A DNA stretch of 64,000 nucleotides from Streptomyces sp. NBC_00094. Its GTDB lineage: Bacteria; Actinomycetota; Actinomycetes; Streptomycetales; Streptomycetaceae. The position numbers were made by a program, and so were the translations under genes. Positions within the stretch are counted from its first letter, which is position 1. Each line of letters opens with the position of its first letter. This document shows, piece after piece, positions 58,996 through 61,825 of this stretch. The stretch lies in assembly GCF_026343125.1 (NCBI RefSeq), contig NZ_JAPEMB010000001.1, positions 3,477,501-3,541,500 of the forward strand. Reading direction: 5' to 3'. The notes beneath the pieces were generated by a model, which saw only the letters and a program-made list of their open reading frames with translations, was not told the DNA's origin and searched no databases.

Positions 58996-59667
58996 GTGCG
59001 CGAACAAGACGCCGGCGCGTGGGACGTGTGGGGCACGGTCAGGCCCGGACGCAAGGAGGCGAACGCGGCCGGAGCCGCGACGTGGTTCAACTGGACGCAG
59101 TGGCCCGACCACGGGCCCGACGAGAAGGTCCTCGGCGACCTCTCCGGCGCGCGGATCCTCGACCTTGGTTGCGGCAGCGGCGGCAACCTCGCTCACCTGG
59201 TCGCACTGGGCTCCGAAGCGGTCGGCGTGGACATCTCGCCCGTCCAGGTGGGCAAAGCGCGCGGACGCTGGCCGCACCTCGATGTGCGGCAGCAGGCGGC
59301 GGAGGAGTTCCTCGCGGCGGGCACGTACGACTTCTCGGCCGTCTACTCGGTCTTCGGAGCCGCCTGGTTCACCGATCCCGCTGAGCTCCTGCCCCTGGTC
59401 CATGCACGCCTGGCGCCCGGCGGGGTCTACGCGTTCTCCCACAACCCCCCTGCCCTGAGCGGCTGCTACGGGCCGCAAGCGTCCCAGATGCAGCCGCCGG
59501 AGAAGGGGGTGGAGCCCATGTACGTGAAGCGATGGGACTACGAGGCCGGCGCCTGGGCGGAGATCCTCCGGCAGGCCGGGTTCACGGACGTGACGACGGA
59601 GGTGATCGCGCCGCCGGAAGGGAAGCGAACGGGGACTCTGCTGGCCAGAGGCGTCAGGGCCTCATAG
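58996..59667 (+). CDS. Class I SAM-dependent methyltransferase
   Basis: A 223-residue methyltransferase: motif I ILDLGCGSGGNLAHL, motif II VGVDISPVQVGKAR, motif III region YDFSAVYSVFGAAWF, then LAPGGVYAFSH. The target is unknown. Two starts are possible: ATG 58927, 3 nt after the previous stop, and GTG 58996 with AAGGGACAAGG; the second gives the normal domain start. Its 3' end overlaps the convergent gene at 59654 by 14 nt. Confidence 0.85.
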   Translation: MREQDAGAWDVWGTVRPGRKEANAAGAATWFNWTQWPDHGPDEKVLGDLSGARILDLGCGSGGNLAHLVALGSEAVGVDISPVQVGKARGRWPHLDVRQQAAEEFLAAGTYDFSAVYSVFGAAWFTDPAELLPLVHARLAPGGVYAFSHNPPALSGCYGPQASQMQPPEKGVEPMYVKRWDYEAGAWAEILRQAGFTDVTTEVIAPPEGKRTGTLLARGVRAS

Positions 59668-59998
59668 AGGGCGCCGGATGGCACAGGCACCCGCACACGA
59701 GGTAGCGGACTCCCTGTACGCCGCTGTCGCGGGGGACCCCGTCGCGGCAGCGGTCGTGGCGGCCGACGATGCAGCGCGGCGACCGGTACTCCGGCTCCGG
59801 CTCGGCCGTGAGGGTCCTCGCCAGGAGGGACACGGTCACCGCGTCGGCGATCTCCGGCGTCACCCACCAGCCGTCGCCCGCGCGGTCGCGGTGCGGGCCG
59901 TCGTGGCCCACGGCGAGCACGCAGACCGAGCCGCCCCACACCGGCCGCACCACCTCCGCGACGGCGAACACGGACCGCCGCGCCCCGCAGCGGCTCAT
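59654..59998 (-). CDS. Small Cys-rich protein of unknown function
   Basis: A 114-residue protein with seven Cys, including a C-terminal CGCLCH, and VLAVGHDGPHRDRAGDGWWVT, a segment seen in Streptomyces phage- or ICE-associated small proteins. The ATG overlaps the stop of the gene at 59995 (ATGA). Member of the minus-strand pair opposite the GntR fusion gene. Confidence 0.6.
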   Translation of the reverse strand: MSRCGARRSVFAVAEVVRPVWGGSVCVLAVGHDGPHRDRAGDGWWVTPEIADAVTVSLLARTLTAEPEPEYRSPRCIVGRHDRCRDGVPRDSGVQGVRYLVCGCLCHPAPSMRP

Positions 59999-60342
59999 CG
60001 CGCGCTCCCCGCGTGGATGTTCCGGTGGTCCACGTCCACCCCGACCGTCGCCAGCCACAGCGCCCGCCGGCGCCTCCGCTGCACGGCCCGAGCCGAGTCC
60101 GCCACCAGGTAGGGGCGCTCCAGGGGCGACCGGGCTCCGTCGAGGAGCGCCGTCTGTTCGCGGGCGTAGGGAGACCGCCCTGTCGGGGCGCGATGGCGCC
60201 GCGCGGGGGCCGGTGCGGCCGGGCGGGGATGGGTGACCGGGCGAGGCCGGTGCCTGCCGGTGGGCGGCAGGGTCAGCATCAGCAGCCCGAGCAGGACGGG
60301 GATCAGAGCCCTGCCCAGTACGCGCGCGATAAGGTTCCGCAC
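59995..60342 (-). CDS. Small basic protein with N-terminal membrane helix
   Basis: A 115-residue protein with one hydrophobic helix (about 7-26, VLGRALIPVLLGLLMLTLPP) and an Arg/Pro-rich remainder. GTG at 60342 has GGGAG. Divergent from the GntR-deaminase gene with the 34-bp operator between, so probably under its control. No family recognised. Confidence 0.6.
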   Translation of the reverse strand: MRNLIARVLGRALIPVLLGLLMLTLPPTGRHRPRPVTHPRPAAPAPARRHRAPTGRSPYAREQTALLDGARSPLERPYLVADSARAVQRRRRRALWLATVGVDVDHRNIHAGSAR

Positions 60343-60428
60343 GTCATCAACTCCCTTGATAGTTGGTGGCCATGCCCCGGGGCCGTTCCAGCGGTCGCCG
60401 GGGTTTCGCGTTCGCGCTCAACGTATCG

Positions 60429-60462
60429 CTAGCTACATAGCGATGCATCACTATGTAGCTAG
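60429..60462. promoter_or_regulatory. GntR-type operator
   Basis: CTAGCTACATAG (60429-60440) and CTATGTAGCTAG (60451-60462) form a perfect 12-bp inverted repeat with a 10-nt spacer in the divergent promoter region. The AT content and half-site length fit a GntR-family operator. Confidence 0.75.
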
Positions 60463-60505
60463 ATCCATCCGAACGTGGCCTTGTATGACTATCTAGCGTT
60501 GGCCT

Positions 60506-61246
60506 ATGACCCTTGACCCGCAGTCGGGACGTCCTCTGTACCTACAGCTGGCCGACATGATCGCCGAGTGGATCGGCACCGGGGAGTACACCCCCGACCG
60601 GATGATCCCCACGCCCGCCCGTCTCGCCGAGGAGTACGGCATCGCCGTACTGACCGCCCGCCGGGCCATGCGCGAACTCCGTGAACGCGGCCTGATCATC
60701 ACCGTGCCTGGCAAGGGCTCCTACGTCACCCCACCTCTGGAAGCACCAAGGCGTAATGGCGGCGGCCCGGCGGGGAGCAGTCCCCTCATGGACCGCGAAC
60801 AGGCACAGCGCTGGCTCGCCACCGCCCTCGACGAGGCGCGCGCCGGGCTCGCCGAAGGCGGGGTGCCGATCGGGGCCGCGCTCTACGGGGCCGACGGCAC
60901 TCTCCTCGGGCGGGGGCACAACCGGCGCGTGCAGGACGGGGACCCGTCGCTGCACGCGGAGACGGCCGCCTTCCGGGCCGCCGGCCGGCAGCGCTCGTAC
61001 CGGGGGACGACCATGGTCACCACCCTGTCGCCGTGCTGGTACTGCTCCGGCCTCGTCCGGCAGTTCGGGATCTCCCGGGTCGTCGTCGGCGAGGCGGAGA
61101 CCTTCCACGGCGGGCACGACTGGCTCGCGGCGCACGGGGTCGAGGTGATCGTCCTCGACGACCCCGAATGCGTGGCCCTCATGCGGGACTTCATCGCCGC
61201 GCACCCCGCGCTCTGGCACGAGGACATCGGACAAGACACCCCCTAG
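60506..61246 (+). CDS. GntR helix-turn-helix fused to an FCY1-type cytosine deaminase
   Basis: A 246-residue protein. Residues about 6-75 are a GntR winged helix (RPLYLQLADMIAEWIGTGEY ... GKGSYVTPP). After a Gly/Ser linker, residues about 95-240 are a zinc deaminase: HAE in SLHAETAAF and PCxxC in LSPCWYCSG. The part from VVVGEAETFHGG to HPALWHEDIG closely resembles yeast cytosine deaminase. The fusion is in one frame without a stop. An internal ATG (60788, with GGGGAG upstream) might also produce the deaminase alone. Leaderless start: TAGCGT lies 6-7 nt upstream. Confidence 0.88.
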   Translation: MTLDPQSGRPLYLQLADMIAEWIGTGEYTPDRMIPTPARLAEEYGIAVLTARRAMRELRERGLIITVPGKGSYVTPPLEAPRRNGGGPAGSSPLMDREQAQRWLATALDEARAGLAEGGVPIGAALYGADGTLLGRGHNRRVQDGDPSLHAETAAFRAAGRQRSYRGTTMVTTLSPCWYCSGLVRQFGISRVVVGEAETFHGGHDWLAAHGVEVIVLDDPECVALMRDFIAAHPALWHEDIGQDTP

Positions 61247-61267
61247 GGGCGTCGATAGGGTGCCCGC

Positions 61268-61699
61268 ATGGCCGAGAACTGGAGCTCGACAGACGGGATC
61301 ATGCGGTTTCCTTCGGGCGCCCTGGTGCGCGGCCGAGGGCTGCGTCACCCCCTGCCCTCAGGGCAGACGCCGACCTTCGGGGTCTATCTGCTCGGCAAGC
61401 AGCCCCCGCGGACCGAGTGGGAGGCTCGGTGGTTGCCGTGGCCCGACTTCCGGCTTCCCAAGGACCGCCGACTGACTCGGATCGTGCTGGAAGAGGCGTT
61501 GACCCGGGCGGGGAACGAACGCGTGGAGATCGCGTGCGGAGGCGGGCGGGGACGGACCGGAACAGCTCTGGCCTGCATGGCCGTCCTTGACGGGGTTCCG
61601 GCGGACCAAGCCGTGGCGTTCGTCCGCCGGCACTACCACCCGCGCGCCGTGGAGACCCCGTGGCAGCGACGGTTCGTCCTGCGCTTCGAGGAGGCATAG
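61268..61699 (+). CDS. Small protein-tyrosine-phosphatase-like protein
   Basis: A 143-residue PTP-fold protein. The P-loop is IACGGGRGRTGTALA with the CX5R signature (C-G-G-G-R-G-R). No export signal. TAGGGT lies 6 nt before the ATG, indicating a leaderless mRNA. It follows the GntR-deaminase gene by 21 bp and may belong to the same locus. Substrate could be a phosphoprotein or small phosphate ester. Confidence 0.82.
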   Translation: MAENWSSTDGIMRFPSGALVRGRGLRHPLPSGQTPTFGVYLLGKQPPRTEWEARWLPWPDFRLPKDRRLTRIVLEEALTRAGNERVEIACGGGRGRTGTALACMAVLDGVPADQAVAFVRRHYHPRAVETPWQRRFVLRFEEA

Positions 61700-61732
61700 G
61701 GCGCTCGGATCCGAACCGCAACCGCGCAAAGC

Positions 61733-61761
61733 TTGACGTGCCCCCAACACCCTGTCGATAT
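61733..61761 (+). promoter_or_regulatory. Possible promoter of the NTPase gene
   Basis: TTGACG (61733-61738) and CGATAT (61756-61761) are 17 nt apart, ahead of the NTPase start. Confidence 0.45.
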
Positions 61762-61825
61762 CCTTGACTTGACGATGTGACGGGGCACATCTCGTGGGAC
61801 AGCAGGGGGAAGCAGGGGGTTGCGG

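Follow-up and report, generated by a model that had tools for sequence, protein, structure and literature searches.

GntR regulators are classed by the domain that lies behind the winged helix, and the subfamilies are defined by this C-terminal domain, according to the available portion of PMC4494728. The described regulators nearest in principle to the protein reported here are those of the MocR/PdxR type, in which a GntR winged helix is joined to an enzyme fold, as set out in the accessible parts of PMC5320631 and PMC4944035. The YtrA subfamily has the shortest C-terminal part, and the same portion of PMC4494728 places its genes mostly in operons with ABC transporters and its sites almost never between divergent operons. 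The GntR regulator KorSA/SCO3932 of Streptomyces integrative elements binds its own promoter and that of the neighboring gene (available text of PMC8584621). On the enzyme side, the closest systems are yeast cytosine deaminase (yCD, FCY1; PDB 1p6o, 1uaq, and 2o3k) and the free-standing actinobacterial deaminases of the yeast type.

The gene under study lies in a 64,000-nucleotide stretch of the genome of Streptomyces sp. NBC_00094, here called the window, and its parts are the following.

60506-61246 (+): fused gene of 246 aa with an ATG start, comprising a short GntR winged helix, a linker and a yeast-type cytosine deaminase; fused homologues exist
60536-60727 (+): GntR winged-helix DNA-binding domain, aa 11-74 (Pfam PF00392; helices and strands in the model)
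60740-60784 (+): linker core, aa 79-93 (pLDDT < 50)
60772-60777 (+): GGGGAG, falling in the alignment on the GGGGAA-type element that unfused members of the group have ahead of their deaminase start; possible internal ribosome site
60788-60790 (+): ATG (M95) at the alignment position where the free-standing deaminase has its start codon; might serve as an internal start
60797-61234 (+): yeast-type cytosine deaminase domain, aa 98-243 (Pfam PF00383, phmmer, Foldseek)
60953-61045 (+): zinc site HAE...SPCWYC with H150, E152, C177, and C180 (alignment with yCD; invariant in 46 proteins)

The 246-aa frame has no internal stop. The first-pass annotation had described it as one frame holding a short GntR winged helix and a complete FCY1-like deaminase, and this description was borne out by Pfam, with PF00392 (GntR, aa 11-74) at 52.8 bits against a cut-off of 27 and PF00383 (dCMP_cyt_deam_1, aa 98-195) at 70.7 bits against a cut-off of 25. 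The AlphaFold2 model (mean pLDDT, 87) has two confident domains on either side of residues 79 to 93, where the pLDDT falls below 50, and the linker is predicted to be disordered. A small DSP/PTP-type phosphatase gene (Pfam PTP-SAK) lies just 3' of the fused gene at 61268-61699 (+); with its protein as the query, a match among the 161 deaminase stretches described below was found in the window only.

By its winged helix the window protein is a member of the GntR family. Pfam at E values up to 0.001 recognized the GntR and deaminase families alone in the fused protein. Neither Pfam nor the model revealed a known GntR effector or oligomerization domain, no aminotransferase-like C-terminal domain was found by Pfam, and all NCBIfam GntR models scored far below their cut-offs. 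Judged by its predicted C-terminal domain, the fused protein fits none of FadR, HutC, MocR, and YtrA. It shares with MocR/PdxR the principle of a winged helix combined with the fold of a metabolic enzyme, whereas its enzyme part is a zinc deaminase rather than the PLP aminotransferase fold of MocR; the window type also differs in that it keeps its active-site residues and is lineage restricted in the samples searched. Unfused relatives of its GntR resemble YtrA in having a winged helix with little behind it, but the two-helix C-terminal part of YtrA was not identified in the window type, and the placement of sites and the ABC-transporter operons given for YtrA in the available part of its description both mismatch the window locus. 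KorSA/SCO3932 is alike as a GntR regulating its own and a neighboring promoter but unlike as a HutC-type protein with a UTRA domain, a different site, and no enzyme. No report of a GntR-zinc deaminase fusion was seen in the accessible portion of the open-access literature searched, which leaves most subscription papers outside it, and the word deaminase was not found in the available part of the main text of PMC5882156.

The identity of the C-terminal half was deduced from sequence and fold together. The nearest solved structures by sequence were those of yeast cytosine deaminase (phmmer; aa 100-243; E, about 6e-34), with 66 of 144 aligned residues the same (46% identity). The best 25 Foldseek chains were likewise all yeast cytosine deaminase (E, 6e-18 to 6e-16; TM-score by target length, 0.84-0.93), followed from about 4e-10 by chains of TadA, ADAT2, and guanosine deaminase, so that the fold is closer to the yeast enzyme than to TadA or guanosine deaminases. 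The likeness extends to the zinc site, the cytosine-pocket residues, and the C-terminal W.EDIG motif, whereas the yeast chains carry no DNA-binding domain and the substrate of the window protein is a predicted one. A TadA-type tRNA adenosine deaminase was rejected (NCBIfam equivalog, 55.5 bits against a cut-off of 150), yeast cytosine deaminase being far closer. For the same reason a toxin-type MafB19 deaminase was rejected despite a MafB19-deam score of 45.5 against the Pfam cut-off of 27, as happens among related deaminase families.

The active-site residues were compared position by position with yCD. Ten were found to be kept (N51, H62, E64, S89, C91, C94, F114, W152, E154, and D155), while 4 of the 18 positions examined differ (T60, G63, M93, and F153, the last being H238 in the window protein). 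Residues N139, S175, F200, W237, and D240 correspond to yCD N51, S89, F114, W152, and D155, the cytosine-pocket residues of the yeast enzyme. The zinc ligands, which had been called intact from the letters alone, are so: H150, E152, C177, and C180 align with yCD H62, E64, C91, and C94, the zinc ligands and the catalytic Glu of the yeast enzyme. Across 46 aligned proteins, fused and free, H150, E152, C177, C180, N139, W237, E239, and D240 are invariant. Since zinc and pocket residues are kept, the enzyme half looks active rather than like a decayed sensor. The free-standing actinobacterial deaminases appear to be the same enzyme, the surveyed unfused proteins being 53 to 91% identical, but no GntR domain accompanies them in the matches seen; the deaminase part also has matches beyond the genus, elsewhere in the class and phylum. 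One genome (G122) holds two near-identical deaminase copies (L070 and L153), of which L070 matches the query in part and may be truncated.

Upstream of the fused gene, four further features were recognized.

60429-60462 (no strand): perfect inverted repeat with 12-bp arms and a 10-bp spacer; candidate GntR operator between divergent genes
60375-60403 (-): GC-rich hairpin with covariation and CRYGGCC behind it, in what is presumably the leader of the two small divergent genes
59995-60342 (-): divergent small gene of 115 aa with a hydrophobic N-terminus; part of the GntR cassette
59654-60058 (-): second divergent small gene of 134 aa, cysteine rich; part of the GntR cassette

The arms of the repeat, CTAGCTACATAG (60429-60440) and CTATGTAGCTAG (60451-60462), lie between the fused gene and 59995-60342. 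GntR factors bind palindromic operators and commonly regulate themselves, and the perfect 12-bp repeat, earlier noted as operator-like, is suitably placed for a candidate operator; its palindrome score of 14 exceeds the best score, 10, among 300 mononucleotide shuffles. No second exact copy was found in the genome, and scanning 60300-60560 for sigma-70 promoters gave no hit. In the fused locus L056 the repeat is also perfect, with one position altered on both arms in a compensated manner. The window palindrome ends 43 nt before the GntR start; in the loci L057, L072, and L074-L077, which are not fused, another palindrome ends 52 to 54 nt before the GntR start, and in L060 and L089, with no deaminase in the stretch examined, one ends 49 nt before it. 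The short GntRs of L060 and L089 are about 78% identical to that of the window and also have divergent genes. Because palindromes precede the GntR with and without a deaminase, the pattern fits a candidate operator that is part of the GntR cassette and does not go with the deaminase. Among the fused species it stands out less well in L078, L080, and L081, whose palindromes are weak.

The two divergent small genes of the first-pass annotation recur beside the same GntR type: one or both were matched at 30 of 43 distinct GntR loci, and neither 59995-60342 nor 59654-60058 has a Pfam or NCBIfam match. Their presumed leader was aligned for 35 of 38 distinct leaders (L073, L077, and L111 being left out). 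RNAalifold paired 10 positions of the hairpin, four pairs of which showed compensating changes on both sides (in 15, 15, 14, and 2 of the 35). The leader anchor is absent from L059 (the same as L004 and L087), L112, L113, and the unrelated L082, and Rfam gave no match in 59600-61800 at E values up to 1. The hairpin recurring beside short GntRs could be an undescribed regulatory RNA element.

The distribution of the fusion was surveyed in several collections. A match at an E value of 1e-25 or better was obtained in 143 of 295 genomes of the genus; among the matches listed, both domains stood in one frame only in the window's genome and in G292. The GntR half matched in 30 of 392 genomes. In a scan of GTDB contigs, where records close to the window's own genome may be missing, it picked up 11 loci in Streptomyces and 2 that are unrelated. 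Six distinct fused sequences were recognized in all, with differing linkers: the window and five other Streptomyces, namely, L056 (G292), L078 (Streptomyces sp. R302), L079 (Streptomyces sp. Root431; G346/L088, with the same reading at L088), L080 (S. roseolus JCM 4411), and L081 (S. narbonensis JCM 4147). The first-pass annotation had named separate genes in all relatives as grounds for refutation; given these five further fused sequences, that is not the case. No fusion was found outside the genus with a six-fusion profile at E values up to 1e-20 in 394 class and 296 phylum genomes, samples that overlap and include the genus; the profile would miss fusions whose winged helix is unrelated. 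Of the 750 plasmid records with a match, not one has 80% of the query covered at a single site.

The deaminase loci numbered 179, of which 161 were distinct, a set enriched for GntR neighbors by its route of collection and varying in flank length. A GntR-like frame lay within the tested stretch in 20 of the 161, and the other 141 showed none. The 20 comprise the 6 fused loci; 9 with adjacent but separate genes (L057, L058, L059, L066, L074-L077, and L117); 3 with DNA inserted between GntR and deaminase (L072, L073, and L094); 1 with a longer GntR-like frame upstream (L064); and 1 with the GntR downstream (L126). L212 is a tenth adjacent-but-separate pair, and the partial GntR match of L211 (aa 52-78) is perhaps a remnant. 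The gap from GntR stop to deaminase ATG is 30 to 53 nt in 9 of the 10 unfused pairs, the deaminase ATG of L212 not being found by the start rule used. The frame offset is 1 in seven pairs, 2 in one, and 0 in two (L076 and L077). At three unfused pairs (L066, L117, and L212) the GntR is a different one, 49 to 55% identical.

Some further observations concern these loci. In L064, L073, and L072 the deaminase is preceded, directly so in L064 and L073, by a longer GntR-like frame (about 240 aa from winged helix to stop), which would be a second kind of GntR at this locus. An inverted repeat like GGGGAAGGCTCCCC stands right before the deaminase ATG in L058, L066, L073, L074, L080, and others and could hide the ribosome site. 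Neighbors of the window gene recur among the 161 loci in the stretch examined (UbiD in 59, PLDc_N in 48, EamA in 28, and LysR in 25), and in several loci the PLDc_N match starts only 150 to 400 nt before the deaminase.

The origin of the fusion was approached with a deaminase DNA tree, built on a selection of 44 of the 161 loci, and a GntR tree of 18 rows. Loci with a GntR beside the deaminase sit in one part of the deaminase tree. The fused rows fall on two branches, one with L079, the window, L081, and L056 together with L094, the other with L080 and L078 together with L117. A single origin of the six fusions was rejected: the deaminase tree does not allow them as one clade (p-AU, 4.6e-8), and the GntR tree speaks marginally against it (p, 0.046). 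When only fused and directly adjacent rows are counted, the deaminase tree needs no more than two changes, and these may be one gain and one loss. On the GntR tree, five fused rows group together weakly (71/75), and the window's GntR is nearest to unfused GntRs while its deaminase groups with those of fused loci, so that the lineage of the window may well have undergone recombination or a younger fusion of its own. The window's fused frame looks young, in agreement with the composition of its linker: the third-position GC is 0.62 over the whole linker, against 0.85 and 0.97 in the two domains and 0.70 to 0.90 in the other linkers, and frame 2 of the linker reads TSGSTKA-stop, resembling the tails of unfused GntRs.

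The preferred reading, to which a probability of roughly 0.6 is given, is that a mini-GntR gene under its own control has merged, more than once, with the active enzyme gene that followed it, and that each half has kept its job. A short autoregulatory GntR gene, in a cassette with two divergent small genes, would have landed directly upstream of an older, free-standing deaminase gene of the yeast type in one Streptomyces group, and the intergenic stop would then have been lost in at least two lineages to give one protein. The winged helix would still bind the repeat at 60429-60462 and repress the divergent genes and its own promoter, while the deaminase would still turn cytosine, or a close analogue, into uracil, and the flexible linker would let the halves work largely independently. 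The main new effects would be a fixed 1:1 synthesis under the GntR-controlled promoter and a possible gain in assembly. Yeast cytosine deaminase dimerizes; if the window deaminase does so too, it would supply a ready means of dimerization to a winged helix with no recognized module of that kind. In favor of this reading are the two complete domains in one frame, the kept active-site residues, the six fused sequences on two branches, the ten unfused pairs, the purifying selection on both fused halves described below, the disordered linker, the majority of deaminase loci without a GntR, and the palindromes before GntRs with and without the enzyme. Against it stand the somewhat looser selection in the fused set, the weak palindromes of L078, L080, and L081, the GGGGA element missing from L056, L079, and L081, and the possibly very recent frame of the window.

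A stronger coupling would make the deaminase the effector domain, with cytosine or a similar base, on being bound or turned over, altering the grip on the repeat, and the enzyme so reporting pyrimidine supply to the fusion's own and the divergent promoter. The first-pass annotation had gone in this direction, suggesting that the enzyme domain may act on a pyrimidine ligand for the DNA-binding part, either as its sensor or by destroying it; this is possible but was left unsupported. In its favor are the occurrence of the fusion on at least two branches, the intact pocket, the lack of another effector domain in Pfam and in the model, and the precedent of MocR, a GntR joined to an enzyme fold (accessible parts of PMC5320631 and PMC4944035). 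Furthermore, the repeat is widened by a left arm, CTAGCTACAYAG, in 3 of the 6 fused loci (window, L056, and L079) and in none of the other palindrome rows printed. The idea is nonetheless considered unlikely, since related GntRs with palindromes exist without the deaminase, the linker is variable and predicted to be disordered, a different GntR stands at three unfused deaminase loci, and Pfam recognized no pyrimidine gene among the window neighbors scanned. The ten unfused pairs and the 141 of 161 loci without a GntR also count against it.

The merger could also be nearly neutral, a stop having been lost in a short gap and the loss tolerated as each half folds alone, so that the fusion would have no function of its own and free deaminase might still come from the internal ATG. 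The short gaps of the unfused relatives, two of which are in the same frame (L076 and L077), suit such a loss. The old deaminase start is still ATG in 5 of the 6 fused sequences, and the window, L078, and L080 also have a GGGGA-type element ahead of it. Both fused halves are under purifying selection, somewhat looser than in separate pairs, which also suits a neutral merger: the summed dN/dS of the fused set was 0.257 for GntR and 0.223 for the deaminase (15 pairs each), compared with 0.152 and 0.149 in six of the ten separate pairs. However, the start is GTG in L056, and the element is absent from L056, L079, and L081; therefore, the fusion may be obligatory there, and more than a bystander. 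The fused form also persists in several species despite changes in linker length, and a merger without function is held to be quite improbable.

The quality of the window assembly was considered as well. Frame-broken flags were raised for 2 of 45 G294 open reading frames and 2 of 21 G292 open reading frames with a window homologue (3 flagged pairs), at about 6311, 30510, and 36970 of the window, and the reverse comparison flagged the fused gene alone. Because the flagged breaks appear upstream of likely gene starts, the assembly is not visibly error-prone nearby. That a one-base error in a C run of the window genome joins two truly separate genes is thus very doubtful, the low third-position GC of the linker and the TSGSTKA-stop of frame 2 suiting such an error but the five fused sequences from other assemblies, the position of all three flagged breaks, and an assembly rated 100% complete in 2 contigs speaking against it. 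Sequencing error as the whole explanation was rejected for the architecture by the five other fused sequences; the window's own fused frame may be very recent or may depend on a single base within a short run of C.

Beyond the preferred merger of two halves that keep their jobs, a bolder and improbable reading is that of a new GntR subfamily, in which an active cytosine deaminase would serve as the dimerization and sensor domain of a self-regulating repressor, arisen repeatedly from a neighboring mini-GntR gene. The question at stake is whether fusing the genes puts transcription under the control of a metabolic enzyme or is only a side effect of gene crowding. Close relatives show the deaminase alone, the neighboring pair, the fused pair, and a different GntR in the same place, and this question is therefore directly testable. 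Should the reading as a new subfamily be true, the fused, adjacent, and separated states in sister species would form a natural series for an enzyme becoming a transcription factor.
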